From Closterium sp. NIES-65 (taxonomy: Eukaryota; Streptophyta; Zygnematophyceae; Desmidiales; Closteriaceae): DNA of 64,000 bases. Position numbers and translations under genes: made by a program. The notes under the pieces are model-generated. The model searched no databases. It saw only the letters and a list, made by a program, of their open reading frames with translations, and was not told the DNA's origin. Positions 1 to 26,019 of this stretch are shown in pieces; positions within the stretch are counted from its first letter, which is position 1, and every line of letters begins with the position of its first letter. The DNA lies in the NCBI GenBank assembly GCA_948144175.1, contig CANXME010002068.1:3162001-3226000 (forward strand), in the 5' to 3' direction.

Positions 1-2988
1 ACCCTGTGACGACCGCTGCAGAGCCTGGTCGTCAGCCCATGAAGCGTCAGGGTGACCTGTGAGTACCACTCGACGTCGCCCTCCGAGCACTAGCCCCATG
101 CCCGACGTACTGCACACGTAGCGCAACACCCTCTTCGCTGCAGCCATGTGCTCTGGTCGGTGTCTCCCAGGAGCAACATAGCGTGCCAAGATGCTAAGAG
201 GGTATGCAAGGTCAGGTCGTGTGCAGGTCATCAGGTACATGAAGCAGCGAACAAGCTCTGGGTACGGGCCACTCGGCTCTACGGACTCATCCGAAGGCAG
301 AGCTGAGAGCGAGTGGCGAGTAGACAAAGTAGTGGCCTGAGGCGAGGAGTACGTGAAGCCAAAGCGCTGAAGGACCTGCTGCACCATATGTAACAGAGTC
401 AGGGTAATGGTACGCTGTGCTTTGTCCCAGGTGATCTGCAAGCCAAGGTAGCTGCGCAGTTCACCCAGGTCTGTGCACGTGTGTCTCTTGTGCAGCTCGG
501 ACTTCACGTGGGCGAGTCCAGCAGTGGCAAAGACCAAGTCGTCGACGTACACGAGGATGTAGAACGGCGGCAGAGAGGTGTCGGTGCGTAGAAACAGCGA
601 CGGGTCGGCAGTAGAAGGAGCAAACCCAAGAGCCACAAGTGTAGTCCTCAGTGTATCGTGCCACTCACGGGGCACGTGGCGGAGACCGTAGACTGGCCGC
701 GGAAGGCTCCACTGGGTACCAGGAGGAAACGACTCAGTGAAGCCAGGAGGGCGGTGCAGCCAGATCTCCTCGTGCAGGCTGCCCTTCAGGAAAGCTGTGC
801 TGAAGTCAAGAGAGTGAAGCTCGTAGTCGCGCTGAGCAGCTATGTGCAGCAGCACCCGAATAGTGGTCATCTTCAAGGTGGGAGAGAAGGTCTGAAAGTA
901 GTCAACTCCCTGCCGCTGACTGAAGCCTTGAGCCACGTAATGCGCCTTGAAGACAGGCGGAGAACCCGGCGGCCGCTTCACCCTGAAAATCTACATGCCT
1001 CTGACCATGTTCGCCCCAGGTGGGGGAACCTCGTCGACGTAGGTGCCTATGGACTTCCAAGAAGCCATCTCTGCGTCCATGGCCGAGTGCCAGTGAGAGG
1101 AGTACGGACCCTCGATCGCCTCAGCATACGATCGAGGAGTCGGGATGTCTGGTGCATCCGGGTCTCCCTCAGGGGCAATCAGCGTGGACACGAGATGGGG
1201 CAAAGCAGCAGCAAAGCACTGGAACTCCTCCTGCCTGTCCTCAAAGACGTCCGTGCTAAGAGCACACTCACCCCCGACGGACAGAGGAAAGACATACTCA
1301 GACTCAACAGCCAGACTAGCATCGTAGTCTAGACGACAGCGAGCAGCAAAGTCGACAAGCTCAGCAACCAAGGCAGATGTAGTAGTGGAATCAACGGAAG
1401 GGTCACTGACAACAGTAGCAAGAAGGCGTATGACCAAAGGACTAGTAGTCGAAGGGAGTCAGACTGTGGTTCCGTAAGGACAGGAAGAGAGGACTCTGGA
1501 GGAGACGGCTACGGGACACGAAGAGGAGCAGTGGAAGGACGCTGTGCCATCTGGTGTGTGGCGGGGACCGCAGGAGGAAGCGGACGCGCAGTACAACCAC
1601 TAGTGCGAGCAGCACAAACATGCAATGCAGGACGAGACGCAGGCTTACGACGCTCAGTAAGACCACCAGTAGGACCAGGGTAGGGAGAAGGAGCAAGGAG
1701 AGGGGAGGCGGGCTGTAACTGTGACTGCGACTGGACAAGCTGAGGACACTCTAAGGGAGGAGCAGGACCAGTAGAGGGCGGGAGACCAAGAACCTGCTCC
1801 AGGAGCGGAACGAAGTACGGCCTCCACCGCGCAGCGCCTCCAGAACCAGCAGGGACAACACCAGTACCCCCAGCGGCAGCACCAGCGCAAGCAACACCTC
1901 TAGCTCCACCAGCGCCAACTCCAGCACCCTCAGAAGCACCAGCGCCAACTCCGGTAAGACCGTCAGCTCCAGTAGCCTCAGCAGCACCCCCAGACGTACC
2001 GGCGCTAGGAGAAACACCAGCGCCTGCACCCCTAGCAGCTCCAGCTCCAGTAGCACCAGTACCGCCAGCAACTCCAGTAGGACCAACTCTAGTAGCCTCA
2101 GCAGCACCCCAAGTCTCAGCAGCACGTCTCCAGCGGCGGGCGAACCACTCGCGCAGCTCCTGTGGAGAGTGCGGCTCCCGCCTCGACGAAGCACCGCCGG
2201 CGGCCACACGAGCAGACCTAGCGCCCCCTGGCTCACACCCCCTGACTCAACACCCCCAGGCTCAGCACCCCCAGACCCAGCACCCCCAGGCTAAGCACCC
2301 CCAGTCTAAGCACCCCCAGACTCAGCACCCCCAGACCCGTCACTTGGAGGCTCAGCACCTCTAGCAGCACTAGAGTCAGGAGCTACCTCGATAGACTCGA
2401 CTGCGTGTACCTGGGACACCCCTGACGAGGCGGGACCCTGAGGGGGGAAAGATCTACCGGGGGAGGACCTGGTGCAAGGAAGAGCGGCGGCGGGGGGAGA
2501 GGCGCAGTGCGGTAGGGGAAGAGACGGTAGTAAGGCACCAACTCGTCAAAGGTGACGTTCTAGGAGGACAGAACATGGCGCGAGGTGGGGTGGTAGAACT
2601 GCCACCCAGGCGCGTCAGGGGGGAAGCCAAGGAAGATGCAGGGAACAGCACGGGGGGATAGCTTGTCCGCAGACAAGTCGCGGACAAACGCCTGAGATCC
2701 CTAGACCCGAAACGCAGACGCATCGCCAACCTTCCCCGTCCACTGCAAGGCGGGGAAGGTCTATGGCAAGGAGACCCGGGGCTGAAGGTTGAGCTGATGC
2801 GCGGATTACTGAACCGCAAACGGCCACATAAAATGGGGGGCAGCCGCATGCATCATGGATGTACGAGCGACGTCCATGACCATGCCAATGCGGCGCTCAG
2901 CAATCCCATTTTGCTGTGGAGAGGCCGGAAGCGTGAAGGTCTGGCGGATGCCCTGTGCATGACAGAAGGCTTCCAGACGAGCAGAGGA
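1..2988 (-). mobile_element. Copia element X, 3' part, cut by window edge
   Basis: Minus-strand remnant of a short-LTR Ty1/Copia retrotransposon. From high to low coordinates it carries the end of the integrase (about 2988-2450, with the block after integrase that reads GWQFYHPTSR-like in sister copies), a Gly/Ala/Glu/Pro low-complexity linker (about 2400-1500), the reverse transcriptase (RT) fingers and palm (about 1440-450) and the start of RNase H (450-1). Order integrase before RT makes it Copia. Near-identical blocks occur in C, E, F and G. The 3' LTR lies beyond position 1. At its right end the bases GAGGA (2984-2988) touch an inserted LTR. The copy is broken, with several breaks. Family assignment is firm; only exact domain edges are uncertain. 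Confidence 0.9.
2226..2345 (-). repeat. 15-bp minisatellite in the integrase-RT linker of X
   Basis: Degenerate tandem 15-mers of the type CCCCCAGGCTCAGCA. Read on the minus strand they code for Glu-Pro-Gly-Gly-Ala-like pentapeptides. The same minisatellite sits at the same place of the polyprotein in C, E, F and G with differing copy number. Confidence 0.8.
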
Positions 2989-3109
2989 TGTCAAATTATA
3001 ATGTTGTGTAGGCTATAGTGGGGTAGCCTATATGGGGTACACATTTTTAGGGTTGCATATTTGTACCACTTTCATTCCTTAGTCAATCCTTCTCGTTTCA
3101 GTTTTCTCA
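2989..3109 (+). repeat. 121-bp LTR (subfamily a), plus orientation
   Basis: Begins TGTCAAATTATAATG and ends TTTTCTCA, followed at once by a PBS. It differs at three positions from the oppositely oriented 121-bp LTR at 6519-6639. The five bases before it (GAGGA) are the reverse complement of the five bases before that other LTR (TCCTC, 6514-6518), which looks like a target-site duplication (TSD) whose two halves now face each other. Confidence 0.9.
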
Positions 3110-3155
3110 TGGTATAAAGCAGGTTCCCTAGTGGGAACTGTGCATAGGGCCCACC
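3110..3155 (+). other. Primer binding site and adjoining hairpin of block B
   Basis: TGGTATAAAGCAGG directly follows the LTR and resembles the plant initiator-Met tRNA PBS (TGGTATCAGAGC). It runs into a small hairpin, GTTCCC (3123-3128) pairing with GGGAAC (3133-3138), and then a GGGCCCACC motif. The same PBS-hairpin-GGGCCCACC layout is present in C, E, F and G. Confidence 0.75.
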
Positions 3156-3199
3156 AAGTCGATTTTTTTTTTTCCTGGCCGGAGCGCGCTCCGCCCGAG

Positions 3200-3960
3200 T
3201 CGCGCTCCTCTCTTTCATCTCGTCGAGCCGCCCTAGCGACTGAGTCGCGCCGCCCTAGCGGCCGCGTCGCCCTAGCGGCCCCGTCGCCCTAGCGGCCCCA
3301 TCGCCCTAGCGTCCCCGTCGCCTAGCCCTACGGCCCCGTCGCCTAGCCCTACGGCCCAGGCGACGCCCTGTCCCGGCCCCGCCGCCCTTCGCTGCGGCCC
3401 CGCCGCCCTTCGCTGCGGCCCCGCCGCCCTTCGCTGCGGCCCCGCCGCCCTTCGCTGCGGCCCCGCCGCCCTTCGATGCGGCCCCGCCGCCTGTTGCTGC
3501 GGCCCCGCCGCTCTTCGCTGCGGCACCAACGCCCTTATCTGCGGCCCCGCCGCCCTTCGCTGCGGCCCCTCCGCCCCTCTCGCTGCGGCCCCGCCGCCTA
3601 CCTTGCGGCCCCGCCGCCCTTTGCTACAGCCCCGCCGCCCCTCTCGCTGCGGCCCCGCTGCCTACCTTGCGGCCCCGCCGCCATTTGTTGCGGCCCTGCC
3701 GCCCCTCTCACTGCAGCCTTGCCACCTACCTTACGGCCCCACCGCCCTACCAGCGGCCGTGCCGCCCTACGCAACCGAGCCACCCGCACCGCTAAGCAGC
3801 CCGAGCCGCCCGTTCCACCCGAGCCGCCCGAGCCGCACGAGCCGCCCGAGCCGCCCGAACCGCCCGAGCCGCCCGAGCCGCCCGAACCGCCCGAGCCGCC
3901 CGAGCCGCCTGAGCCGCCTGAGCCGCTGAGGAGCCGAGCCGCTAGTGCCGCAGAGCCGTA
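3200..3960 (+). repeat. GC-rich minisatellite leader of block B
   Basis: Tandem GC-rich units of about 21 bp built on CGGCCCCGCCGCCCTTCGCT, then Pro-Pro-Glu-coding CCGCCCGAG units (about 3800-3930). It lies between PBS and gag. Similar simple repeats of differing unit occupy this slot in C, E, F and G. Reading frames here are low complexity and are not genes. Confidence 0.75.
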
Positions 3961-4111
3961 GTTGCTGCTGAGCCATCCGAGTCTCCCGAGCCGCCGTGTT
4001 GCCGAGCTGCTGTACTGCCGAGCTGCCCGAACCGCCCTGTCTTGTGAGAGCAGCGCTTCTGTCTTTGCACTGCCCCTGTCCTACAGTTAGCGCTGCTAGT
4101 CTACTGCTGTC

Positions 4112-5330
4112 ATGGCTACCCCCAGTGTTCTCACTTTTGACGCTGAGGGTCGGGCCATTGACTTTGACGTCTGGGTAGATGACCTGCAGCTTTTCCTACA
4201 GTGCGATAGGACAGACGGTCTCTCTCTCTTTGACCTCACCTCTGGCGCCTCTCCTGCCCCTGTTGCTGATGCTGACACCACTGTTCGCTCCAAGTGGGCT
4301 ACGCGCGATGCTGCTACACGTCTTGCTGTGCGTCGCCACCTGCCTACCACTGAGCACGTGCACTTTAGTCAGTACAAGAGTGCTCAGACCTTGTACGACG
4401 CTATAGTTGCGCGCTACTCTTCCCCTGCCACTGCTGCACTGAGCCGCCTCATGCTACCGTACCTCTTCCCCGACCTTGCTGCCTTTCCCACAGTCGCTGA
4501 CCTCATTACGCACCTCCGCACTAGTGACACTCGCTACCGCGCTGCGCTTCCTGCTGAGTTGTGCGCCAAGAACCCCCCCCATGTACATCACCCTCTACTA
4601 CATAGTCACCCGGCTCCCGGACTCTCTTCGCGTAGTCAGGGACCACTTCCTCTCAGTTTGCCCCACCACTCTCACCGTTGACCTCCTCGAGAAGGCCCTC
4701 CTAGCAGCGGAGAAGAGCATAGTCGCTGTAGGAGCCTCTCGTGGTGACCCTCGCACCCCCATCTTTGAGGGGTGTTCCCCTTCCCCCCTTTTTCCCTCTG
4801 TCGCCTCTGCTGCTGCGGCCGACCTCGTTGGTCTTGAGTCGGTCGGTGCGGCGTCTGCCCCTAGCGGGAGACGCCGCTGTGGCAAGGGCAAAGGGGGCAA
4901 GGACGCGGGTGGAGCTAGCGGGGATGGTGGAGGTGGCCGTGGAGGCGGCGGAGGGAGTGGGGGTGGCGGTGGGAGTGGTGGCGGGGGTGGAGGTGTCGGT
5001 GGCAGCAGTGGAGGCGGCGGCGGCGGAGGCGGTAGCGGTGGGAGCGAAGGCGGCGGTGGTGGCGGCGGTGGAGGAGGCGGTGGTGGCGGAGGTGGAGCTG
5101 GTCGGGGTGGCGCTTCGCAGCGGAGCGGCTGTGGTGGTGGTCAGCGCCAGCAGCAGCAGCAGCAGCAGCAGCATTCTCGGGACATCCCCCCACCTCAGTG
5201 GCTACGTGAGTGGTACGCGCAGCGTCAGCGTGGTGGGCGTTTTGGTCCGTGCACCTACGTCCTTCGCACCGGTGACCGCGCGGGTGAGCAGTGTGGAGGT
5301 GCCCACCCCACCTAGCTCTGCTTTGGCCGT
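4112..5330 (+). pseudogene. Copia gag remnant (block B)
   Basis: Start ATG at 4112 opens MATPSVLTFDAEGRAIDFDV, the N-terminus shared with C, E, F and G. Gag would form the virus-like particle and bind element RNA. The N-terminal part is the usual alpha-helical copia gag (VARYSSPATAALSRLMLPYL-type motif). The C-terminal part is a long poly-Gly/Ser run (about 4920-5110), a Gln run, then a Cys-His cluster of the form C-x13-C-x3-H (about 5250-5310). A run of eight C (4573-4580) lies inside gag. Fossil copy, broken. Confidence 0.85.
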
Positions 5331-5447
5331 CTGACGGACGCTTGGCGTCGGCAGTTCCCGGAGGCCACTGAGATCCCCCGCTGGGGAGAGCTGTCTAGGG
5401 CAGGTGTAGCTATCTATGATCTTGACTTTGATGCTATTCTTGCTACC

Positions 5448-6518
5448 ATGTATGCTGTGACAATTAGTGATGAGGGTGACTGTTACCGGTGTTTCTCGCC
5501 CGACCCGGGCATTGAGACTGCTGCTCTATGTAGTGGTGAGGCTGCTGCTCTAGGTGCCAGTGCGTCTGCGTCCTCAGGTGCTGGTGAGTCTGCGCTCTCA
5601 TGTACCGCGTCGGCTTCGGCCTCCCTCACCTTCACACTTGACTCAGGGGCTTCTCGCTCCTTTCGAGACCGCACCACACTCACGCCGCTTGGTCGGCCGG
5701 TTGCAATCTCCCTTGCAGACCCTTCTGGGGGTCCTGTCCTCTCTCACTTTTCTACTGTCCTCCTGTGTCCGCCTGCCCCCTCTGGCACCTTGTCTGGTCT
5801 TTACCTCCTCTCCTTCTCTACGAACTTGGTGTGTGGTGCTGACCTACAGGATGCGGGGGTTCACCAGTTTACTCCTGCGCGTCAGCGGGTGACCCACTGC
5901 TCGGACGCTCGCACAGGCCGGCACCTGGCCACGTTTTCGCGTCGGCCGGGGTCGAGCCTCTACACCTGTCCCTGCGTCTGGTCAGGTAGCTGCGTCGGGT
6001 CAGGTGTTTGCTGCACCGTCCAGGTCTGGTCCTGAGTCTGCCCCCTGCTCGTGTCGCCTCCTGTCTCACGAGACTCTCCTGTGGCACCACCGCCTTGGTC
6101 ACCCCTCCTTGCCTCGTCTCCGAGGCATGGCTTCCCGTGTCCTTGTCTCTGGTCTTCCCCGGTCTCTCCCTCCCCTTCCTCCGGGGCCTGGTCCTTCCTG
6201 TGTCCCCTGTGTCGAGGGGCGGCTACGGGCTGCCCCTCACTCCTCTCAGTCTCCCCCGACAGAGGCCCCACTGCAGACGCTTCACATGGACGTGTGGGGC
6301 CCGGCCCGCGTCCGTGGACAGGGTCACGAGCGCTACTTTCTGCTGGTGGTTGACGACTACTCGCGTTACACCACAGTCTTCCCCTTGCGCAGCAAGGGTG
6401 ACGTCACTGAGGTGTTGATCGACTGGATCCGCACAGCTCGTCTCCTGCTCTGAGAGAGTCTCGGCTCCGCCTTTCTTGTTCTGCGTCTGCACTCGGACAG
6501 AGGCGGGGAGTTTTCCTC
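5448..6518 (+). pseudogene. Copia protease and integrase remnant (block B)
   Basis: Holds the aspartic protease signature LDSGAS (about 5635-5655), the integrase zinc-binding His-His...Cys-Cys module (LWHHRLGHPS to CVPCVEG, about 6080-6215) and the first integrase core Asp (HMDVWGP, about 6283-6303), plus VVDDYSRYTT. Integrase would insert the cDNA into chromosomes. The domain order matches sister copies F and G. Fossil, broken in a few places. Confidence 0.85.
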
Positions 6519-6639
6519 TGAGAAAACTGAAACGATAAGGATTGACTAAGGAATGAAAGTGGTACAAATATGCAACCCTAGAAATGTGTACCCCATATAG
6601 GCTACCCCACTACAGCCTACACAACATTATAATTTGACA
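6519..6639 (-). repeat. 121-bp LTR (subfamily a), minus orientation, shared by B/X and C
   Basis: Begins TGAGAAAACTG and ends TTTGACA on the plus strand, the reverse complement of the 2989-3109 LTR with three differences. On its left are TCCTC and the end of block B. On its right is the polypurine side of element C (CACCCCCATAGG, minus-strand reading ATGGGGGTG). It thus serves as 3' LTR of C and also abuts B. Confidence 0.9.
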
Positions 6640-6850
6640 CACCCCCATAGGCAAAGTGGGAGAGAACAAGGGGTCACAAGACCAGTCAAGCAAAGCAAAG
6701 CAAAGCTCAGGGTGGATCACTTAGTCACCACACAATCCGAGCACAAGTTCAAGGCCAGAAGGCCAGTTCACATGCAGGAGCACATATATATATATATAAA
6801 GGCTAAACACGTAAGAGCGAGAGTATATATATGTGACAGTACAAGCAAGG

Positions 6851-7720
6851 TCAAGAAGTGAGCAAGTGAGGCAAGGTAGGCACAAGACCAAGCTGAGTAC
6901 AGAAGCGCTGATGATCACAAGGCGCAAGTGCCTTAGTGAAGATATCAGCAGTGTTGGCCTTAGAGGCCACGTACGCAAGTCGCAACTGACCACGCTGCTG
7001 CAGCTCACGAGCAAGAAAGTAGCGGAGAGCAATGTGCTTCGTTCTGTGCTCTTGGCACTGCTCCCGACACAAGGCCAGCATGGCCTTGTTGTCTACGTAC
7101 AGCACTGGAGGAGAACGAGGCGGCTCTCCGAGGTCAGTCAGCAGGTAGGTGAGCCAGCGAAGCTCCCGTGCAGCCATGGCCCCGGCGTAGATCTCAGCCT
7201 CACAACTGGAGCCGAGAACAGAAGACGAGCGAGTAGCCCGTCACGAAAGAGAGCCGGAACCAAGGTTGAAGGTGAAACCCTGTGACGACCGCTGCGTAGT
7301 CTGGTCGTCAGCCCAAGAAGCGTTTGCGTGCCCAGTGAGGACCACTGGACTCTGCCCTCCAAGCACTAGCCCCATGCCCGACGTATTGCACAAGTAGCGC
7401 AACACCCTCCTCGCTGCAGCCATGTGCTCTGGTCTGTGTCTCCTAGGAGCAACATAGCGTGCAAGAATGCTAAGAGGGTATGCAAGGTCAGGTCGTGTGC
7501 AGGTCATCAGGTACATGAGGCAGCCAACAAGCTCTGGGTACGGGCCACTCGACTCTACGGACTCATCCGAAGGCAGAGCTGAGAGCAAGTGGCGAGTAGG
7601 CAGAGGAGTGGCCTGAGGCGAGGAGTACGTGAAGCCGAAGCGCTGAAGGACCTGCTGCATCATGTGTGACTGAGTCAGGGTAATGGTGCGGCGTGCTCTG
7701 TCCCGGGTGATTAGCAAGCC
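6851..7720 (-). pseudogene. RT tail and RNase H remnant of C
   Basis: Contains the block around LTQSHMMQQVLQRFGFTYSS, TRPDLAYPLSILARYV and LYVDNKAMLALCREQ, followed by the C-terminal HIALRYFLARELQQRGQL and ADIFTKAL motifs typical of copia RNase H. RNase H would remove the RNA strand during cDNA synthesis. Closely matched by E, F and G. Fossil. Confidence 0.85.
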
Positions 7721-9851
7721 AAGGTAGCTGCTCCAGGAGCGGAACGAAGTACGGCCTCGGCCGCTCAGCGCCTCCAAAACTAGCAAGGACGGCGCCAGTA
7801 CCCCCAGCGGCAGCACCAGCGCCAGTAGCACCGCCAGCGCCAACACCCCCAGCAGCTCCAGTTCGAGCAGCACCAACTCCAGTAGGACCATCAGCACCAG
7901 CAACCTCACTAGCACTAGTAGAAACACCAGCGCCAACACCCCCAGCAGCTCCACCTCCAGTAGCACCGGCACCACCAGCATCTCCAGCAGGACCCCTAGT
8001 CTCAGCAGCAAGTCTCCAGCGGCAGGCAAACCACTCGCGCAGCTCCTGTGGAGAGAGCGGCTCCCGCCTCGACGAAGCATTGCCAGTGGCCATACGAGCA
8101 GACCCAGCACCCCCAGGCTCCGCACCCTCAGGCTCAACACCCCCAGGCTTAGCACCCCCAGACACAGCACCCCCAGGCTCAGCACCCCCAGTCTCAGCAC
8201 CCCCAGACTTAGCACCCCCAGACCCGGCACCCGCAGGCTCAGCACCTCTAGCAGCACCAGAGTCAACAGCTACCTCTACAGGCTCGACTGCGTCTACCTG
8301 GGACACACCGCACGGGGTAGGACCCTGAGGGGGGAGGGGGTCTACCTGGGGAGGACCTGACGCAAGGAAGAGCGGCGGCGAGGGGAGGGGCGCAGTGCGG
8401 TAGGGGAAGAGACGGTAGTAAGGCACCGACTCGTCAAAGGTGACATCCTGGGAGGACAGAATACGGCGCGAGGTGGGGTGGTAAAACTGCCACCCAGTCG
8501 CGTTAGGGGGGAAGCCAAGGAAGATGCAGGGAACAGCACGGGGGGACAGCTTGTCCGCAGACAAGTCGCGGACAAACGCCCGAGATCCCCAGACCCGAAA
8601 CACAGACGCATCGCCAACCTTCCCGATCCACTGCAAGGCGGCGGAGGTCTCTGGCAAGGAGACCTGGGGCTGAAGGTTGAGCTGATGCGCGGCGTACTGA
8701 ACCGCAAACGGCCACAGAAAATGGGGGGCAGCCGCATGCATCATGGACGTACGAGCGACGTCCATGACCATGCCAATGCGGCGCTCAGCAATCCCATTTT
8801 GCGGTGGAGAGGCCGGAAGCGTGAAGGTCTGGCGGATGACCTGTGCACGACAGAAGGCTCCCAGACGGGCAGAGGAAAACTCCCCGCCTCTGTCCGGGTG
8901 TAGACGTAGGACAGGAAAGTCCGAGCCGAAACTCTCTCTGAGCTGGAGAGGAGCCGCGCGGATCCAGTCGATCAACACCTCAGTGACGTCACCCTTGCTG
9001 CGCAAGGGGAAAACTGTGGTGTAACGCGAGTAGTCGTCAACCACCAGCAGGAAGTACCGCTCGCGACCCTGCCCACTGACGCGGGCTGGGCCCCACACGT
9101 CCATGTGGAGAGTCTGCTGCGGAGCCTCTGTCGGAGGAAACTCGGAGGAGTGAGGGGCGGCGCGCTGTCGCCCCTCAACGCAGGGGACGCACGTAGGGCC
9201 AGGCCCCGGAGGAAGGGCAGGGAGAGACCGAGGGAGACCAGAGACAAGGACACGGGAGGCCATGCCTCGGAGGCGAGGCAAGGAGGGGTGACCAAGGCGG
9301 TGGTGCCAAAGGAATGTCTGGTGGGACAGCGGACGACACGAGCAAGGAGCAGACTCAGGACCGGACCTGGACGCCGCAGCAAACACCTGACTCAACGCAG
9401 CTATCTGGGCAGACTCAACAGTAGAAGGAGACTCAGAAGTAAGGGTGTACAGGCTCGACCCTGGCCGACGGGTGAACGTGGCCAAGTGTCGGCCTGTCCG
9501 AGCACACGTGCAGTGGGTCACTCGCTGACTCGCAGGAGTGAACTGGTCAACCCCCCTATCCTGTAGGTCCACTCCACTCACCAAGTTTATAGAGACCGAG
9601 GGGAGGTAGAGACCTGACAGGGTGCCAGAGGGGGCTGCAGGGCACGGTAGGACAGTGTAGAAGCTAGCAAGGACAGGACCCCCAGAGGGGTCTGCAAGAG
9701 AGGCTGCAACCGGCCGACTGAGAGGCGTAAGAGTGGTGCGGTCTCGAAAGAAGGAGCGGGACGCACCCGAGTCCAGGGTGAAGGTGTAAGGCCTGAGCCG
9801 ATGTAGTACGTGAGAGAGCAGACTCACCAGCACTTGGGTCAGCAGACGCAC
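7563..9851 (-). CDS. Protease-integrase-linker reading frame of C (762 codons open)
   Basis: A long open frame inside element C. Near its N-terminus is the protease signature LDSGAS (about residues 26-31). Then come the integrase zinc module (HHRLGHPS...CVPCVEG), the catalytic core with HMDVWGP, PDRGGEF and NGIAERR (the D-D-E Asp, Asp and Glu), and the post-integrase block GWQFYHPTSRRILSSQDVTF. The remainder is a Gly-Gly-Ala-Glu-Pro linker. The integrase would act in the nucleus within the cDNA complex. The frame covers only part of the polyprotein, so it is a fossil segment and not a complete gene. Confidence 0.85.
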   Translation of the reverse strand: MRLLTQVLVSLLSHVLHRLRPYTFTLDSGASRSFFRDRTTLTPLSRPVAASLADPSGGPVLASFYTVLPCPAAPSGTLSGLYLPSVSINLVSGVDLQDRGVDQFTPASQRVTHCTCARTGRHLATFTRRPGSSLYTLTSESPSTVESAQIAALSQVFAAASRSGPESAPCSCRPLSHQTFLWHHRLGHPSLPRLRGMASRVLVSGLPRSLPALPPGPGPTCVPCVEGRQRAAPHSSEFPPTEAPQQTLHMDVWGPARVSGQGRERYFLLVVDDYSRYTTVFPLRSKGDVTEVLIDWIRAAPLQLRESFGSDFPVLRLHPDRGGEFSSARLGAFCRAQVIRQTFTLPASPPQNGIAERRIGMVMDVARTSMMHAAAPHFLWPFAVQYAAHQLNLQPQVSLPETSAALQWIGKVGDASVFRVWGSRAFVRDLSADKLSPRAVPCIFLGFPPNATGWQFYHPTSRRILSSQDVTFDESVPYYRLFPYRTAPLPSPPLFLASGPPQVDPLPPQGPTPCGVSQVDAVEPVEVAVDSGAARGAEPAGAGSGGAKSGGAETGGAEPGGAVSGGAKPGGVEPEGAEPGGAGSARMATGNASSRREPLSPQELREWFACRWRLAAETRGPAGDAGGAGATGGGAAGGVGAGVSTSASEVAGADGPTGVGAARTGAAGGVGAGGATGAGAAAGGTGAVLASFGGAERPRPYFVPLLEQLPWLANHPGQSTPHHYPDSVTHDAAGPSALRLHVLLASGHSSAYSPLALSSAFG
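8090..8260 (-). repeat. 15-bp minisatellite in linker of C
   Basis: Tandem CCCCCAGGCTCAGCA-like 15-mers in the segment between integrase and RT, the same element-wide feature as in X, E, F and G. Confidence 0.8.
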
Positions 9852-10029
9852 TAGTACCTAGAGCAACATCCTCACCAGCACCTAGAGCAGCGGTCTCAAT
9901 GCCCGGGTCAGGCGGTACACACAAGTAACAGGCACCCTGAACACTATCAGCAACAGCATACATGGCAGCAAGAATAGCATCAAAATCAAGATCAAAGATA
10001 GCAACCCCGGCCTTAGTCAGATCTCCCCA

Positions 10030-11321
10030 GTGAGGGATCTCTTACGCCTCAGGGAACTGGCAACGCCACGCGTCCGTGAGGCGACCAAAGCAACGCTGGG
10101 TGGAGTGCGGGCCTCCGCACTGCTCACCAGCGCGGTCGCCGGTACGGAGGACGTAAGCGTAGGGACCAAAACCCCCACCGCGCTGACGTGCAGTGTACCA
10201 CTCACGAAGCTGCTGAGGGGACAGGGTCACACCACTCCGCTGCTACTGCTGGCGCTGACCACCACCGATGCCACTCCTCGGCGCAGAGTCGCGACCCGCT
10301 ACACCACTGCCGCCTCCGCCGCCGCCGCCGCCTCCGCCGCCTCCTCCACCTCCTCCTCCTCCACTACCTCCGCCACCTCCGCTCCCTCCGCCACCTCCAC
10401 CGCCTCCGCCGCCTCCACTGCCGCCGCCGCCGCCACCACCCCGCGCACCACTCCCACCACCACCCCCACTCCCTCCACTGCCTCCACCACCACCTCTACC
10501 GCCCCCTCCAGCCCCTCTAGCGCCCTTGCCCCCCTTGCCCTTGCCGATGCGGCGTCTCCCGCTCGGGGGAGACGCAGCACCGACCGACTCGAAACCAACA
10601 AGGTCGGCCGCAGCAGTAGAGGCAACAGAGGGCAAGAGGGGGGAGGGAGAACACCCCTCAAAGACGGGGGTGCGAGGGTCACCACGAGAGGCTCCTACAG
10701 CGACTATGCTCTTCTCTATCGCTAGGAGTGCCTTCTCGAGGAGGTCAACGGTGAGAGTGGTGGGGCAGACTGGGAGGAAGTGGTCCCTGACTACGCAGAG
10801 AGAGTCAGGGAGACGGGTGACTATGTAGTAGAGGGTGATGTTCATGGGGGGGGGGGGGGGTTCTTGGCGCAGAACTCAGCACGAAGCGCAGCGCGGTAGC
10901 AAGTGTCACTAGTGCGGAGGTGCGTTATGAGGTCAGCGACAGTGCGAAAGGCAGCAAGGTCAGGGAAGAGGTACGGTAGCATGAGGCGGCTCAGTGCAGC
11001 AGTGGCAGGGGAAGAGTAGCGTGCAACTATAGCATCGTACAAGGTCTGAGCACTCTTGTACAGGCTAAAGTGTGCACGCTCAGTGGTCGGTACGTGGCGG
11101 CGCACAGCAAGGCGATCAGCAGCATCGCGCGTGGCCCACTGTGAGCGAACAGTGGCGTCAGCATCAGCAGCAGGGGCAGGGGAGGCACCAGAAGTGAGTT
11201 CAAACAAGGATAGGCCGTCGACCCTATCACACTGCAGGAAAAGCTGTAGATCATCTACCAAGACCTCAAAGTCCATTGCCCGACCCTCAGCGTCAAAGGT
11301 GAGAACGCTAGGGGAGGCCAT
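10030..11321 (-). pseudogene. Copia gag remnant of C
   Basis: Starts at 11321 with MASPSVLTFDAEGRAMDFEV and runs through the helical gag domain, a run of 15 G on the plus strand (10846-10860), MNITLYYIVTRLPDSL, a long Gly/Ser-coding tract (about 10270-10530) and a C-terminal Cys-His cluster (QCGGPHSTQRC, about 10080-10110). Gag would package element RNA. The opposite strand shows Pro-rich and Thr/Ala-rich frames that are only the shadow of the Gly repeats. Fossil. Confidence 0.85.
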
Positions 11322-11399
11322 AACAGCAGTAGACAGGCAGTGAGTACAGTGGGGCAGGGCAGCGCAGTGGCAGAAACTATGCTCTAACCACGCAAGTGG

Positions 11400-12400
11400 G
11401 GCGGCCGGGCAGCTCGGCGCGGCGGTCGGGCGGCTCGGGTGTCAGGCGGTTCGGCTGCTGGGCAGCTCGGCGGTTGGGCGGCTCGGCTGCTCGGTGCTGG
11501 GCGGCTCGGCGGTCGGGCGGCTTGGCTGCTCAGTGCTGTGCGGCTCGGCGGTCGGGCGGCTCGGCTGCTGGGCGGCTCGGCGGTCGGGCGGCTCGTCTGC
11601 TGGGCGGCTCGCCGGTCGGGCGGCTCAGCTGCTCGGCGGTTCGGCTGCTCGGCGGTGTGGGCGCTGGGCGGCGGGGCCGCAGGTGGCGGCGAGGTTGCAG
11701 GTGGCTACGGGGCCGCAGGTGGCGGCGGGGCCGCAGGTGGCGACGGGGCCGAAGGTGGCGGCGGAGCCGTAGGTGGCGGTGGGGCCGCAAGTTGCGACGG
11801 GGCCGCACATGTGCCGAAACGGGGCAGTAAAGTGGCCAGACGGGTCCGTAGCGGGGCCAGATGGGGCCGTAGCAGGGCCAGACGGGGCCGTAGCGGGGCC
11901 AGACGAAACCATAGCGGGGCTAGAAGAGGCTGTAGCGAGGCCAGAAGGGGCCATAGCGGGGCCAGACGAGGCCGCGGAGGGGCCTATATGGGGCTGCACG
12001 AGGGGCCAGACGGGGCCGTGAAGGGGGTAAGGGGCCAGACGGGGTCGCGGAGGGGGCCTAGGCGAGGCCGCGAAGGGGCTTAGGCGGGGCCATAAGGGGC
12101 CAGGCGGGGCCGCAGAAGGGCCTAGGCGAGGCCGCGACGGGTCCGTAAGGGGCCTAAGCGGGGCCGTAAGGGTCCAGACGGGGCTGCGGAGGGGCCTAGG
12201 CGGGGCCGGGACGGGGCCGTAAGGGGCCTAAGCGGGGCTGTAAGGGGTCAGACGGGGCCGCAGAGGGGCCTAGGCGAGGTCGCGACGGGGCCTAAAGGGG
12301 CCTAAGCGGGGCCGCGACGAGGCCATAAGGGGCCAGACGGGGCCGTAAGGGGCCTTAAGGGTGGCGTGAGGGATCGTAGAAGGCGGAGCGAGGGGTCGTA
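11400..12400 (-). repeat. GC-rich minisatellite leader of C
   Basis: Between gag and PBS. The left part (11400-11690) has CGGTCGGGCGGCTCGG-type units, the middle (11680-11810) GCAGGTGGCGGCGGGGCC-type units, the right (11820-12360) units of about 20-40 bp built on GGGGCCGTAAGGGGCC. No conserved protein is seen; open frames here are translated simple repeat. Confidence 0.75.
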
Positions 12401-12514
12401 AGGGCTGCCAAAGGTGGCCACTAACGGCGGCTCGAGGCGCTACTCGGGTAGGAGCGAAGCGCGTTCGGGCAGGGAAGAAAAAAATCGTGGTGGGCCCTAG
12501 GCACCATTCCCACT

Positions 12515-12535
12515 CGGGAACCTGCTCTGATACCA
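12515..12535 (-). other. Primer binding site of C
   Basis: Minus-strand TGGTATCAGAGCAGGTTCCC directly inside the LTR at 12536. It matches the plant initiator-Met tRNA PBS over its first 12 bases and continues into the conserved GTTCCC/GGGAA hairpin. Confidence 0.85.
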
Positions 12536-12666
12536 TGACGAGAAATGAGAATGGATGAATGAACTATGAAACAGTTGGGTACAAGTACTAACCCTAATTG
12601 GGTTGTACCCCTTATGGGCTACCCCACTACAGCCTACACAAATGTATAAGCTATAATGTTCCGACA
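12536..12666 (-). repeat. 131-bp LTR (subfamily b), 5' LTR of C
   Basis: Plus strand TGACGAGAAATGAG to TGTTCCGACA. Read on the minus strand it starts TGTCGGAACATTATAGC, resembling the LTRs of E rather than the 121-bp LTR at the other end of C. It keeps the core TAGTGGGGTA ... GGGGTACA found in all LTRs of the group. Confidence 0.85.
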
Positions 12667-12928
12667 TTTTATCTAGCGCGGAAGTGTACTGTTTCGTTTG
12701 GCTAACTATACTGTAGGAAGGCAGACAATATAGGGGTACAATTTAGGTGAAGGTTGTATTTTGTTTTTCTGTATCAGTATGCTATAGGGACAGGGGAAAC
12801 CAGCGGAACCAGCATTTGGCTAGTTGGGCAGAGACAAAGTAGGTTCTGTTTTTAGGACCTAAACCTGGTTGTTGTTTTCCCAGGTTGGAAAAACGGAACC
12901 AGAGGTGGTTTACCAACCTACCACCTGC
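12667..12928. other. Unassigned sequence between C and D
   Basis: About 260 bp of ordinary composition with GGAACCAG-type short repeats. No open frame, RNA gene or end motif could be assigned. It may hold the diverged start of the 5' LTR of D, whose left edge I could not fix. Confidence 0.5.
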
Positions 12929-13492
12929 TGTTTTGTCCAGCCAAATTGGTTCTGTTGCTTGGAGTTATTTGTGATCATCCCTGGTTGTTCCCACGTTGAT
13001 TCCCAAGGTCCTTGCTAGCTAAAACTATCTATTCCTTCTCTGTTGGTACCTAGATACAGTAAATTTGATTCAAGCAAACTCAATCCTTGCCGGATTTTCG
13101 TTACTGCGCGGTTCAATGGCGGAATGCTATAGAGTCAACTCTAGTACGCTAGCACTACGACGCTAGTTAAACGCTGTCCGAGCCATAACTTCATAATGGC
13201 ATATTTTTTCGCGAGGCAACTTGGTTCATATAGAAGCTCTTGGGGCGTGCTTCGATATGGAAAATTCTCAGCTTAATCCGATTGACGATCTGCACGGCAC
13301 GCTTTGCAATGTACAATGTACTCTTGATATTTGGCTAAGATATTGTTGACTCCTTTCTCTACAAACTCGGACTCGTAGATAGGGGATAGTCTTGTACCAC
13401 GCACCCAAGGACCCTTGGAGGTGACCCCGAAGAGAGGTTTCATGTTTAATTAAGTTTTTCTAACCTGAGTTTATTAGACCCTTACACCAACA
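12929..13492 (+). repeat. 5' LTR of D (left edge approximate)
   Basis: Aligns with 17355-17949 from TGATCATCCCTGG (12972) to the end at CTTACACCAACA (13492). The first 40-75 bases do not align clearly, so the left edge is an estimate. Confidence 0.7.
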
Positions 13493-13495
13493 AGC

Positions 13496-13507
13496 TGGTA
13501 TCAGAGC
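13496..13507 (+). other. Primer binding site of D
   Basis: TGGTATCAGAGC, the standard plant copia PBS complementary to the 3' end of initiator-Met tRNA, three bases after the LTR end. Confidence 0.9.
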
Positions 13508-13516
13508 TTCGTTCTA

Positions 13517-14143
13517 GTGATCCTCGTTATATGTAGATATGGCGGCAATACCTTGCCAGAAGCTGATGAATATTCGGCCCAAGATCATAGCGGCAGCCAA
13601 GATTCTGGTGTTTCGGTGCCAAGGGGAGCGCGAACAAACCAGGGCTCGCTGATCAAGGAGGTGCTGAAGAACTTCACTGTTGAGAAGTTCAATGGTAAGG
13701 TCTATGATGATTGGGTTGCGAAAATGCAACTCTATTTCCGCAAGATCGGTTTTCTGAAACTAATGATTGGGGAGGAACCTAGATTGAGTGACCCCGCACT
13801 GCAGGAAGATTGGGACGAGCGCGTCTCGGCTGGCTACTATATGATGTCGCAGAGTTTGGAGCTGAACCAGTGTCACCACGTCATGCGCGTGCTGCCGGAG
13901 GTTGAGTGCGGACCGAAGGCGTGGACTGTGCTGATGGAGCTGCACGCCCTGACCTCCATTGTCGCAATATTGATGCTGGGGAGGGAGATGTCCGGGCTGC
14001 GCCCGAGCGAGGGAGAGCCAGTGCAACCTGTCCTGGACAAGATGCACAACCTCTACGCGATGTTGGCCACTACAGGGATCACCTACTTAGAGCAGACCAA
14101 GTGCTTGATGATGCTATCGCTGCAACCTGAATGGTTGCTTTAA
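13517..14143 (+). pseudogene. gag remnant of D
   Basis: Reads NFTVEKFNGKVYDDWVAKMQ and VLDKMHNLYAMLATTGITYL, the pattern of plant copia gag (UBN2/retrotran_gag type). The N-terminus resembles gag of K (LDKIKDTYVRMAAAGSKL) more than that of the short-LTR group. The start is approximate. Fossil. Confidence 0.75.
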
Positions 14144-20976: not shown

Positions 20977-21108
20977 TGAGAAGAAGTGAACGAGAATGAA
21001 ATGACTATGAATGAAGTGAGTACAAATAGGAAACCCTAATGGGATTGTACCCCCTATGGGATACCCCACTATAGCCTACACAAATGAGTAAGCTATAAAG
21101 TTCTGACA
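20977..21108 (-). repeat. 3' LTR of E (132 bp)
   Basis: Plus strand TGAGAAGAAGTGAACG to AAGTTCTGACA. It differs from 25888-26019 at one base (CACAAATG against CAAAAATG). Next to it on the right is CACCCCCATTGG, the polypurine tract on the minus strand. Confidence 0.95.
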
Positions 21109-21217
21109 CACCCCCATTGGCAAAGTGGGGGAGAACAAGGGGTCACAAGACCAGTCAAGCAAAGCAAAGCAAAGCTCAGGGTGGATCACAAAGTCACCAC
21201 ACATTCCGAGCACAAGT

Positions 21218-22132
21218 TCATAGGCCAGAAGGCCAGCTCACATGCAAGATGACATATAGAGATATACAAGAGTCAAGCAAGCAAGAGCAAGAGTATATAT
21301 AGGTAAAGGTACAAGCAAGGTCAAGAAGTGAGCAAGTGAGGCAAGAGAGGCACAAGACCCAGCTGCGTGCAGCATCGCTGATGATCACAAGGCGCAAGTG
21401 CCTTGGTGAAGACATCAGCAGTGTTGGCCTCAGAGGCCACGTACGCAAGTCGCAACTATCCACGCTGCTATAGCTCCATGCAAGGAAGAAGCGGAGAGCA
21501 ATGTGCTTTGTCCTGTGCTCCAGTCGCTGCTCTCGACACAAGGCCAGCATGGCCTTGTTGTCTACGTACAGGACTGGAGGAGAACGAGGCGGCTCTCCTA
21601 GGTCGGTCAGCAGGTAGGTGAGCCAGCGAAGCTCCTGGGCCGCCATAGCCCCGGCGTAGATCTCAGACTCACAACTGGAGCCGAGAACAGAAGACGAGCA
21701 GGTAGCCCGCCACGAAACAGAGCCGGAACCAAGGCTGAAGGTGTAACCCTGTGACGACCGCTGCGTAGCCTCGTCGTCAGCCCAAGAAGCGTCCGCGTGC
21801 TCAGTGAGGACCACTGGACTGCGCCCTCCAAGCACTAGCCCCATGCCTGGCGTACTGCAAAAGTAGCGCAACACCCTCTTCGCTGCAGCCATGTGCTCTG
21901 GTCGGTGTCTCCCAGGAGCAACATAGCGTGCGAGAATACTAAGAGGGTATGCAAGGTCAGGTCGTGTGCAGGTCATCAGGTACATGAGGTAGCCAAGAAG
22001 CTCTGCATACGGGCCACTCAACTCTACGGACTCATCCGAAGGCAGAGCTGAGAGCGAGTGGCGAGTAGGCAGAGGAGTGGCCTGAGGCGAGGAGTACGTG
22101 AAGCCGAAGCGCTGAAGGACCTGCTGCACCAT
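21218..22132 (-). pseudogene. RT tail and RNase H of E
   Basis: Open for 304 codons. Contains VQQVLQRFGFTYSSPQ, TRPDLAYPLSILARYVAPG, HADASWADDEATQRSSQGYT (RNase H first Asp block), CESEIYAGAMAAQELRW (Glu block) and YVDNKAMLALCREQRLEHRT. The C-terminal end departs from sister copies. Fossil segment. Confidence 0.85.
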
Positions 22133-22138
22133 GTGTGA

Positions 22139-24253
22139 CTAAGTCAGGGTAATGGTGCGCTGTGCTCTGTCTCGGGTGATCTGCAAGCCAAGGTAGCTGC
22201 GCAGTTCACCCAGGTCTGTGCACGTGTGTCTCTTCTGCAGCTTGGACTTCACGTAGGCGAGTCCAGCAGTGTCAGCTGTGGCAAAGACCAAGTCGTCGAC
22301 GTACACGAGGATGTAGAACGGCGGCAGAGAGGTGTCGGTGCGCAGAAACAGCGACGGGTCTGCAGTGGAAGGAGCAAACCCAAGTGCCGCCAGCGTAGTC
22401 CTCAGTGTGTCGTGCCACTCACGCGGCGCCTGGCGGAGACCGTAGACTGGACGCCGGAGACTCCACTGGGTACGAGGAGGGAAAGACCCAGTGAAACCAG
22501 GTGGGCGACGCAGCCAGATCTCCTCGTGCAGGCTGCCCTGCAAGAAAGCAGTGCTGAAGTCGAGAGAGTGCAACTCGTAGTCACGGTGAGCAGCAACGTG
22601 CAGCAGTACCTGAAGAGTGGTCATCTTCGGGGTGGGGGAGAAGGTCTGAAAGTAGTCAACTCCCTGCCGCTGACTGAAGCCACGAGCCACGTAACGCGCC
22701 TTGAAGACAGGCGGAGAACCCGGTGGCCGCTTCACCCTGAAAATCCACATGCCACTGACGATGTTCGCCCCAGGAGGGGGGACAGCGTCAACGTAGGTGC
22801 CTGTGGACTTCCAGGACGCCATCTTTGCATCCATAGCTGCCTGCCTTTGAGAGGAGTAGGGACCCTCTATCGCCTCCGCGTAAGAGCGCGGAGTCGGGAT
22901 GTCTAGTGCATCCGGGTCTCCCTCAGGGGTAAGCAGTACAGACGCGAGATGAGGTGAAGCGGCGGCCAGACACTGGAACTCCTCCTGCCTGTCCTCAAGG
23001 ACGTCCGTGCCAAGGGCACACTCACCCCCGACGGACGGAGGACAGGCAGACTCAGACTCAGCGACAAGACTAGCAGCGAAGTCTAGACGACAGCGCGCAG
23101 CAAAGTCGACGAGCTCAGTAACAAGGGCAGACGCAGCAGAAGACTCGAAAGAAGGGTCTGTGACGGCAGTAGCAAGGAGACGCGTGACAGTAGGACTGGC
23201 AGCACGAAGAGAGTCCGACTCCGGGTCGGCAAGAGCAAGAAGAGAGGACCCAGGAGGAGAAGGCAAAGGGGCACGCAAAGGAGCAGTGGACGGACGCAGA
23301 GAGATCCGGTGCGTGCCAGGGACAGGAGGAGGACGCTGACGCGAACCGCGACCACTAGTGCGCGCAGCACGAACAGGCGACGTAGGACGTGACGCAGGCT
23401 TACGACGCTCAGTAAGACCTCCAGTCGGACCAGTGTAGGGAGAAGGAGCAGACAAAGGGGAGGCAGGCTGTAGCTGTGACTGTGACTGGACAGGCTGTGG
23501 ACCCTCTAAGGGAGAAGGAGGAGGACCAGGAGGAGGTGTAAGACCAAGAACCTGCTGCAGGAGTGGAACGAAGTACGGTCGGGGCCGCGTGGCGACGCTA
23601 GAAACAGCAGGGACAGCACCAGTACCCCCAGCAGGAGTACCCGCTCCAGCAGCACCTCCAGTAGCTCTAGAACCCCCAGCTGCACCTCCAGCAGCCCTAG
23701 AACCTCCAGCAGCACCAGGAGCACTGCCAGGCGAACCGCCAGCGGTAGTCTCAGCGCCAACACGCTCAGCAGCACCAGCTCCAGGAGAACCCGCAGGCCC
23801 AGCAGCTCCAGTACTCCCAGTACGAGCACCTCCGGGACGCGCGGCAGCAGCACCCTCAGCAGCCGAAGAACCTCCAGCACCAGCAGCACGCCTCCAGCGC
23901 CGGGCAAACCACTCACGCAGCTCCTGTGGGGAGAGTGGCTCTCGGCGAGATGAAGCACCCGGAGAACCTCCAGGCGAAGAACCTCCAGTCTCAGCACCCC
24001 CAGGCTCAGCACCCCCAGGCGCAGCACCTCCAGTCTCAGCAACCCCAGGCTCACCACCCCCAGGCTCAGCACCCCCAGGCTCAGCACCCCCAGGCTCAGC
24101 ACCCCCAGGCTCAGCACCCCCAGACTCCGCACCCCCAGGCTCAGCACCCCTAGGCACAGCACCCCCAGTCACAGCACCCCTAGGCTCAGCACCCACAGCA
24201 GCACCAGAGTCACCAGTGACCTCGACAGGCTCGACCGCGTCTACCTGGGACAC
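22139..24253 (-). CDS. Linker and reverse transcriptase frame of E (704 codons open)
   Basis: Begins in the integrase-RT linker (MSQVDAVEPVEVTGDS, then Gly-Gly-Ala-Glu-Pro repeats to about residue 115 and a Gly/Ala-rich stretch), then RT. RT blocks seen: YAEAIEGPYSSQRQAAMDAK, VKRPPGSPPVFKARYVARGF, DYFQTFSPTPKMTTLQVLL, SLDFSTAFLQGSLHEEIWLR and the catalytic palm YVDDLVFATAD (YVDD about residues 651-654). RT would copy element RNA to cDNA in cytoplasmic particles. Part of a shortened copy, so not a complete polyprotein. Confidence 0.88.
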   Translation of the reverse strand: MSQVDAVEPVEVTGDSGAAVGAEPRGAVTGGAVPRGAEPGGAESGGAEPGGAEPGGAEPGGAEPGGGEPGVAETGGAAPGGAEPGGAETGGSSPGGSPGASSRREPLSPQELREWFARRWRRAAGAGGSSAAEGAAAARPGGARTGSTGAAGPAGSPGAGAAERVGAETTAGGSPGSAPGAAGGSRAAGGAAGGSRATGGAAGAGTPAGGTGAVPAVSSVATRPRPYFVPLLQQVLGLTPPPGPPPSPLEGPQPVQSQSQLQPASPLSAPSPYTGPTGGLTERRKPASRPTSPVRAARTSGRGSRQRPPPVPGTHRISLRPSTAPLRAPLPSPPGSSLLALADPESDSLRAASPTVTRLLATAVTDPSFESSAASALVTELVDFAARCRLDFAASLVAESESACPPSVGGECALGTDVLEDRQEEFQCLAAASPHLASVLLTPEGDPDALDIPTPRSYAEAIEGPYSSQRQAAMDAKMASWKSTGTYVDAVPPPGANIVSGMWIFRVKRPPGSPPVFKARYVARGFSQRQGVDYFQTFSPTPKMTTLQVLLHVAAHRDYELHSLDFSTAFLQGSLHEEIWLRRPPGFTGSFPPRTQWSLRRPVYGLRQAPREWHDTLRTTLAALGFAPSTADPSLFLRTDTSLPPFYILVYVDDLVFATADTAGLAYVKSKLQKRHTCTDLGELRSYLGLQITRDRAQRTITLT
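23985..24195 (-). repeat. 15-bp minisatellite in linker of E
   Basis: The clearest array of this kind in the window: about 14 near-perfect copies of CAGGCTCAGCACCCC. On the coding strand they give Gly-Ala-Glu-Pro-Gly pentapeptides. The unit is a multiple of three, so copy number can change without shifting the frame. Confidence 0.92.
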
Positions 24254-24440
24254 ACCTGAAGTGGCAGGACCCTAAGGGGGAAGGGGGTCTACCGGGGGGG
24301 GACCTGGTACCAAGAAGAGCGGGGGTGGGGGGAGGGATGGAGTGCGGTAGGGGAAGAGGCGGTAGTAGGGTACCGACTCGTCGAACGTGACGTCCTGGGA
24401 GGACAGAACACAGCGAGAGGTGGGGTGGTAGAACTGCCAC

Positions 24441-24767
24441 CTAGAACTGCCACCCAGGGGAGTAGCGCGCAACTACAGCGTCGTACAAGGTCTGAGCACT
24501 CTTGTACTGGCTAAAGTGCGCGCGCTCAGCGGTAGGGAGGTGGCGACGCACAGCAAGACGTGCAGCAGCATCGCGCGTGGCCCACTGTGAGCGAACAGTG
24601 GCGTCAGCATCAGCAGCAGGGGCAGGGACGGCACCAGAGGTGAGGTCAAAGAGAGAAAGACCGTCTGCCCTATCGCACTGTAAGAACAGCTGCAGGTCGT
24701 CGACCCAGACCTCAAAGTCAATGGCGCGACCCTCAGCGTCAAAAGCTAGGACACTAGGGGTAGCCAT
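24441..24767 (-). pseudogene. gag N-terminal part of E
   Basis: MATPSVLAFDAEGRAIDFEV to SAQTLYDAVVARYSPGWQF. This is the family gag N-terminus, passing straight into the post-integrase block. The Gly-rich and Cys-His parts of gag are not present. Fossil. Confidence 0.85.
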
Positions 24768-24929
24768 GACGACAGACTAGCAGTGCAAGCAGTGCGGGGA
24801 GGGGCACGCAGTAGCAGTGGAGTTGTGCTCACTAGACAGGACAGGTCGAGCAGCTCAGCAGCACAGGAACACGGTAACACAGAAGCTGCCGGCCTTGTAG
24901 CAACAGCAGCCCCACAGGACCAGCAGCTC

Positions 24930-25640
24930 GGCTCCCCAGGTGGCTCGGGCGGGTCGGGCGGCTTGGGCGGCTCGGGCGGCTCGGGCGGCCCGGGCGGCTC
25001 GGGCGGCTCGGGCGGCTCGGGCGGCTCGGGCGGCTCGGGCACGCAGCGGCACGGGCGACTCGGGCGGCTCCGCTGCTTGGGTGGCTCGCGCGGCTCGGGT
25101 GACGCGGGGGCTCACGGGCGACGCGGGCGTCGTGGCGGGCGGCTCACGGGCGGCTCGTGGGCGGCTCACGGGCGGCTGCACGAGTGGCTGGGGTGGCTCA
25201 CGGGCGGCACGTTGGGCGGCTGCACGGGCGGCTGCACGGGCGGCTGCACGGGCGGTTGCACGGGCGGCTGCACGGGCGGCTGCACGGGCGGCTCACTGGC
25301 GGCTGCACGGGTGGCACGTCGGGCGGCAGCACGGGCGGCTGCACGAGCGGCTCACGGGCGGCTGCACGGGCGGTACGTCGGGTGGCGCACGGGCAGCTCA
25401 CGGGCGGTTGCACGGGCGGCTGCACGGGCGGCTGCACGGGCGGCGCGTCGGGCTGCTGAGGGCGACGCACGGGCGGCCGACAGGCGGCTAGCGGGCGTCG
25501 GGCGGCGCGCGGGCGTCGGGTGGCTAGCGGGCGCCGGGCGGCTAGCGGGCGTCGGGCAGCTAGCGGGCGTCGGGCGGCTAGCGGGCGTCAGGCGGCTGGC
25601 GCGTCGGGCGGCTAGCGCACGGGCAGGCAGCTGACGGGCA
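24930..25640 (-). repeat. GC-rich minisatellite leader of E
   Basis: Plus-strand GGCGGCTCGG and GGGCGGCTGCAC units (9-12 bp) and GCTAGCGGGCGTCGGGCG units (about 18 bp, 25490-25600). It lies between gag and PBS. Frames of up to 283 codons here are translated simple repeat. Confidence 0.8.
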
Positions 25641-25867
25641 GCTCTGGGCGGCGCACGGGCGGCTCACGCGAGCCGCTCACACTCTGCGTAGGGCAGCGCG
25701 CGGAGCGCTAGGGCGCTAGGGCGGGCAACGCGCGGGCGCTAGGGCGGGCAGCGGGGCGCGGGCGCTAAGGTGGCGCTCAGGCTGCTAGGGCGGGCGGCGC
25801 GCTAGCTGCTAGGGCAGAAAAAAAAAATTCAAGGTAGTGGTGGTGGGCCCTAAGCACAGTTCCCACA

Positions 25868-25887
25868 GGGGAACCTGCTCGATACCA
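25868..25887 (-). other. Primer binding site of E
   Basis: Minus-strand TGGTATCGAGCAGGTTCCCC adjoining the LTR at 25888, continuing into the family hairpin and the GGGCCCACC motif (25840-25850). Confidence 0.85.
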
Positions 25888-26019
25888 TGAGAAGAAGTGA
25901 ACGAGAATGAAATGACTATGAATGAAGTGAGTACAAATAGGAAACCCTAATGGGATTGTACCCCCTATGGGATACCCCACTATAGCCTACAAAAATGAGT
26001 AAGCTATAAAGTTCTGACA
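25888..26019 (-). repeat. 5' LTR of E (132 bp)
   Basis: Pairs with 20977-21108 with one difference. It is followed by TAGAT (26020-26024), the right copy of the target-site duplication. Confidence 0.95.

Follow-up and report, generated by a model that had tools for sequence, protein, structure and literature searches.

The window analyzed here, a 64,000-nucleotide stretch of the Closterium sp. NIES-65 genome (positions 3162001-3226000 of a 6.7-Mb contig; the assembly comprises 874 Mb in 2400 contigs), begins with a cluster of related Ty1/copia retrotransposons in which two long terminal repeats (LTRs) facing opposite ways are the 5′ and 3′ ends of one element. This inserted copia is designated N, the host copia whose integrase region received it is designated E1, and a second E-type copy is designated E2; N and E also denote the two subfamilies. 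It is likely that N, once nested in E1, took part in a crossover with its host that inverted a piece of the nest, and that a deletion joined the product to E2. The minus-strand block at the left is referred to as X, the plus-strand block between the two N LTRs as B, and the minus-strand element on the right as El2; L011 is the genomic stretch to the left of the window, and C-numbers are contigs of the same assembly.

The pieces were compared with a reference set of genomic copies, 10 whose 5′ end is N-type and 10 whose 5′ end is of the E type seen in the right-hand element, picked from the upper part of each 40-match list. Some references are near-identical (L018/L026/L027; L029-L032; L033-L035), and the independent numbers are therefore smaller than 20. 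Subfamily typing used diagnostic sites that separate N from E, 109 of them for B, X 1-700, and the compared part of E2, together with similarity in 150-bp windows. Junction searches of the assembly scored the 40 best candidates each, so that their counts are not exhaustive.

The two N LTRs are identical at 118 of 121 positions with three mismatches and no gaps, and begin with TG and end with CA; no other inverted repeat in the 74 kb compared reaches both 60 nt and 95% identity. The pentamers GAGGA (2984-2988) and TCCTC (6514-6518) directly abut the LTR ends; read in N's own direction, GAGGA adjoins both ends, its right copy running from 6518 to 6514. An earlier note, made from the letters of this DNA alone, had placed a plus-strand LTR at 2989 and a near-identical minus-strand LTR at 6519, with complementary pentamers directly against them, and these positions are exact, the pentamers ending at 2988 and 6518. 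Its statement that B stops at the integrase position where X begins also holds, X picking up the integrase where B ends. Seven N references carry both LTRs and represent five distinct insertions, L018, L026, and L027 being counted once; the 5-bp duplication is exact in four of the five, and L025 has four of the five bases. Among the E references with both LTRs, three of four distinct ones have an exact 5-bp duplication and L028 does not match. With an exact duplication in four of the five distinct N insertions, chance is an unlikely source of the GAGGA match.

The internal ends of the two LTRs carry the context of a complete element. The left LTR is followed at 3110 by TGGTATAAAGCAGG, and TGGTATCGAGCAGG occupies the same place in nine of the ten N references. 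Upstream of the right LTR, read in its own direction, stands CCTATGGGGGTG, as in six of the seven N references with a 3′ LTR; the seventh, L020, has CCTATGGGGGTA, one base different. From their position and from general copia anatomy, we take these to be the primer-binding site and the polypurine tract, respectively. With both in place and GAGGA at both ends, the two LTRs are therefore the 5′ and 3′ ends of one copia, N, inserted at one target site inside an integrase with duplication of GAGGA, and both flanks of GAGGA/TCCTC are E-type integrase. Among the matches listed, 15 pairs of 5′ and 3′ N LTRs lie less than 15 kb apart: 12 have the normal facing (those on C454, C2243, and C2155 probably represent a single insertion), two are same-direction neighbours, and one is inverted, the sole inverted pair being the present locus. 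The coordinates of all features are collected in Table 1.

Table 1. Features of the rearranged copia cluster, in window coordinates.
Feature	Position	Strand	Basis or remark
X: 3′ part of E1 (rest of integrase, reverse transcriptase), E subfamily	1..2983	-	Diagnostic sites, RVT_2
GAGGA, left target-site duplication copy of N	2984..2988	+	Sequence directly against LTR
5′ LTR of N, TGTCAAATT...TTTTCTCA	2989..3109	+	Inverted pair; then TGGTATAAAGCAGG at 3110
N: primer-binding site, leader, gag-like region, start of integrase	3110..6333	+	N-type, original orientation
J1, interval containing the proposed N/E1 crossover	6334..6401	+	Last N site 6333, first E site 6402
Putative inverted tail of E1's interrupted integrase	6402..6513	+	5/5 diagnostic sites E-type
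TCCTC, right target-site duplication copy of N (GAGGA in N's orientation)	6514..6518	+	
3′ LTR of N	6519..6639	-	Inverted pair, polypurine tract before it
Presumed polypurine tract of N, TATGGGGGTG	6640..6649	-	Directly before 3′ LTR
3′ end of N (end of reverse transcriptase, RNase H by position)	6640..7727	-	50/59 diagnostic sites N-type from 3′ LTR to J2 (6 E, 2 other, 1 gap)
J2, GCAG (minus strand) microhomology junction of N and E2	7728..7731	-	About 1.34 kb missing
5′ part of E2	7732..12535	-	108/109 diagnostic sites E-type in part compared (1 other)
5′ LTR of E2, TGTCGGAAC...TCTCGTCA	12536..12666	-	E-type LTR

The coding regions have the order of Ty1/copia elements, in which the integrase (gag_pre-integrs, rve) lies upstream of the RVT_2 reverse transcriptase, and N and the references share the TG...CA LTRs, the presumed primer-binding site and polypurine tract, and the 5-bp target duplication. 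In B, the Pfam family gag_pre-integrs scores 38.3 bits, above its cut-off, and a truncated rve scores 23.8 bits, under its cut-off; the gag-like region of N is named by position, and its open frame has no Pfam match. In the 3′ end of N, the open frame 6851-7240 likewise gave no match in a Pfam search. RVT_2 occupies window positions 1-990 of X on the minus strand, 3′ of the integrase region in X coordinates, and was found in all five frames given from X and two further copies in the window. In E2, gag_pre-integrs, rve, and SH3_retrovirus are all above cut-off.

Subfamily typing separates the pieces of the cluster. Most of the 150-bp windows of B, from 3110 on, favour the N copies; those starting at B 1276-1501 and 3226 are tied or slightly reversed. 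At the diagnostic sites between 5616 and 6333 B is N-type in 60 of 63 (one E, two gaps), with about 91-96% identity to N copies (L019 aside) and 83-85% to E copies. Over 6402-6518, E references match B at 102-110 of 117 positions and N references at 91-101 of 117. For X, most windows favour E, those at X 976, 1576, and 2401-2626 being tied or slightly reversed; X is E-type at 38 of 41 sites in X 1-700 (one N, two other) and at 18 of 19 at its window end (one N), and two pieces in L011 are E-type at 12/13 and 28/31. El2 resembles E more closely in every window with a start at El2 1-4726, and N more closely from El2 4801 on. In a leave-one-out control, eight of nine N and ten of ten E references aligned show no opposite-type run of more than two sites; L019 is mixed throughout, and L021, which does not span the region, was left out. 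Two further copies in the window have opposite-type sites singly or in pairs only. An N-type copy at window 37915-45414 stands in ordinary orientation with both LTRs 97.5% alike, and served as an out-of-sample control of the typing.

Since B is N-type to 6333 and E-type from 6402, its diagnostic sites identify it as N's own 5′ half, apparently unflipped and joined in register to the last ~117 bp of E1. The breakpoint at 6334-6401 is chimeric and falls at the same position of N and E1. A 38-nt tract at 6340-6377 is identical in the E-type El2 and in four of the six N copies compared. The pattern of N followed by E in B is absent from all 20 references in an ungapped three-block test. For the two LTR junctions and for J2, one full-length match each was found among the 40 scored, namely this locus, the remaining 39 ending at the junction or close to it.

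Leftward, E1 continues beyond the window as far as its 3′ LTR, which is E-type, at L011 2768-2894. Its 3′ part contains a further element, M, at L011 3282-9757, with terminal repeats of 864 bp that are 99.2% identical and TGTTC on both sides; being nested in E1, M is younger than E1.

On the right, at J2, about 1.34 kb of the reverse transcriptase region is missing relative to X, and the switch of El2 from E to N coincides with this gap and with the GCAG microhomology. The sequence adjoining J2 on the E2 side is 93% identical to E and 81% to N. E2 extends ~1.1 kb beyond the integrase site where N cut E1, and there are two E elements because E2 passes this site and X is E-type over the same part. 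The outer flanks are unlike, with TAAAA before the 5′ LTR of E2 and TCCAT after the 3′ LTR of E1, which is what separate insertions of the left and the right E piece would give. The outer E LTRs differ from each other at six positions plus four gap positions; the LTR pairs of E references (five, four distinct) have three to four mismatches within a pair, plus one gap in L028. One E element with its own two outer LTRs is thus disfavoured by the TAAAA/TCCAT mismatch and by an LTR divergence above that of the reference pairs. A simple reciprocal inversion between N and E1 alone is rejected, as El2 stays E-type for ~1.1 kb past the integrase site. The 5′ LTR of E2 adjoins the LTR-like start of another copia, from 12667 onward. 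Inverted copies (89-91%) of the LTR and start of this other copia flank the whole N/E complex at window 12667-13795 and L011 22-2320, and the left one contains a remnant of the N/E family at about L011 626-1788.

A history of the locus can be proposed in which N, on the plus strand, would have integrated into the integrase of E1, an older relative on the minus strand, duplicating GAGGA. The gag-integrase half of N would then have faced the gag-integrase half of E1 as an inverted repeat of kilobase scale, and a homologous crossover between these halves at J1 would have inverted the intervening piece, which would comprise the integrase tail of E1, TCCTC, the 3′ LTR of N, and the 3′ part of N (about 6402-7730). 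A switch of B from N to E on the TCCTC side is required by such a crossover. Later or simultaneously, a microhomology-mediated deletion may have fused the reverse transcriptase regions of N and E2, until then a neighbouring minus-strand E-type element, removing the rest of the 5′ half of E1, the 3′ half of E2, and both inner flanks. A deletion joining N to E2 would jointly explain the lost 5′ half of E1, the lost 3′ half of E2, and the unmatched outer flanks. We infer this order of events, as well as an exchange within one chromosome at J1 and a single deletion at J2.

Several points weigh against this history. The breakpoint at J1 has no reciprocal chimeric counterpart, the other end being J2 to E2; the expected product, a fusion of the 5′ half of E1 to N at that integrase position, is not present, and a deletion must be assumed to account for its absence. 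The E-type tail at J1 consists of only five diagnostic sites in 117 bp. A search across J1 gave 40 matches, of which the 39 others, at 93-94% identity, could be either plain N copies or N copies that end in an E-type tail, so that uniqueness of J1 in the genome could not be shown. The evidence for both chimeric junctions comes from the assembled sequence.

Other explanations differ in how they account for the inverted LTRs. On the proposal of the earlier note, a single copia would have received a solo LTR, and recombination of this LTR with the inverted LTR of the copia itself would have flipped the 3.4 kb between the two, a reading that the inverted pair with GAGGA/TCCTC invites. The insertion with its GAGGA duplication and a later inversion through inverted repeats survive from this proposal. 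The solo LTR does not, given the primer-binding site and polypurine tract, and neither does an exchange between the 121-bp LTRs: B is N-type for 3.2 kb and X is E-type, the 3′ LTR that E1 does possess is E-type and not N-type, and the change of subfamily falls within B rather than at an LTR. Where ordinary host flank was expected past 6639, the polypurine tract and N-type 3′ end begin at 6640. The block between the LTRs, which on that proposal should form one element with X, is N-type to 6333, and the block it took as flipped, 2989-6639, keeps its original orientation in B, the inverted piece being about 6402-7730 on the history favoured here. The primer-binding site and leader at the left LTR, the polypurine tract and 3′ end at the right LTR, and the subfamily difference between B and X were absent from that note. 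An LTR-LTR flip is accordingly rejected by the typing and the LTR context, and is extremely improbable. Autointegration is another proposed route: the ends of a recombinant N/E cDNA would attack its own integrase site, and the resulting inversion circle, carrying complementary 5-bp repeats, would later recombine into an E-type element. In an inversion circle, the LTR ends are joined to the two halves of one internal site, and here the U3 and U5 LTR ends do meet complementary GAGGA/TCCTC. For such a pathway, an N/E/N recombinant cDNA must have formed, then a circle, and the circle must have recombined into the genome; moreover, 18 of the 19 references aligned over the integrase region show no clear N/E mosaic, and the mismatch of the outer E flanks speaks for two E insertions, not one. 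Inversion circles are a known product of autointegration (PMC2644782), and the locus, if it arose in this way, would be a captured autointegration product, a normally dead-end by-product turned genomic fossil. We regard this origin as decidedly unlikely.

Misassembly, whose exclusion the earlier note had called for, could have produced the cluster by misjoining diverged copies of the same family. The assembly does contain at least one fold-back-like structure: C40 has a perfect 2944-nt palindrome around rbcL, the plastid-like gene for the Rubisco large subunit, and other rbcL contigs carry copies on alternating strands. A fold-back gives near-perfect palindromes, whereas the long inverted arms at the present locus are 79-88% alike and of different subfamilies; no near-perfect palindrome occurs in the 74 kb, where only the LTR pair forms an inverted repeat of 95% identity or more. 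A fold-back artefact is thus not seen and is unlikely here. The 6.7-Mb contig also speaks against an assembly error, and a target duplication is not an expected product of a misjoin, which is likewise unlikely, as is assembly error as a whole. The two junctions might also have been made together in one complex event, such as template switching during break repair, as J1 and J2 bracket the inverted piece in the manner of inversions with flanking deletions. The homologous, in-register J1 and the microhomology at J2 fit two mechanisms slightly better, with nothing decisive between them, and a single event appears very improbable. The nested pair, followed by an N/E1 crossover and a deletion to E2, is the likely history.

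Elsewhere in the window, a minus-strand element of the family at 20977-26019 has 132-bp LTRs that are 99.2% identical and is apparently a recent insertion that belongs clearly to neither N nor E; no match to B or X was found for part of its gag-integrase region. In the assembly, rbcL, which among solved structures best matches Rubisco large chains, several of them from green plants and green algae, has 24 matches, of which 20 are full-length with equal score, on contigs C40, C75, C97, C162, C824, C1848, and C2174. Contigs with several full-length copies carry them on alternating strands at irregular spacing, and the palindrome on C40, which is 100% identical, surrounds one rbcL pair. Either fold-back or chimeric contigs of the plastid, or a plastid genome of unusual form, would probably account for them.

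A retrotransposon becomes a substrate of local inversion when same-family copies nest in opposite directions; the present locus offers a worked example, and the target duplication, the crossover interval, and the repair microhomology are all readable at this one place, an unusual degree of detail. Annotation could take such nests for unrelated partial or solo elements, and in genomes rich in copia this could mislead LTR-based dating and counts of solo LTRs. Among the titles and beginnings of abstracts listed in the literature searched, no same-family nested LTR element inverted within itself was found. The cluster resembles autointegration circles in that LTR ends are joined to two halves of one internal site; it differs in having two subfamily copies and a genomic nest, for which a circle is unnecessary. 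Autointegration yields deletion or inversion circles, according to PMC2644782. Nested LTR retrotransposons in maize, and ectopic rearrangement between retroelements, have been described (PMC2774510, citing SanMiguel et al. 1996), and such plant nests share with the present one a younger LTR element within an older; here, however, the nest is scrambled by inversion and deletion, and its pieces read as head-to-head partial elements. In retrotransposon recombination-mediated inversion, described for L1 and Alu in the human-chimpanzee comparison (PMC2603318), recombination between retrotransposon copies likewise flips the intervening DNA. The present case differs in that one LTR element is nested inside another of the same family, and that the flipped piece is made of the elements themselves, with one LTR and the target duplication. 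We judge the mechanism to be retrotransposon recombination-mediated inversion acting inside a nest of LTR elements, a mechanism of a known kind and not a new one.

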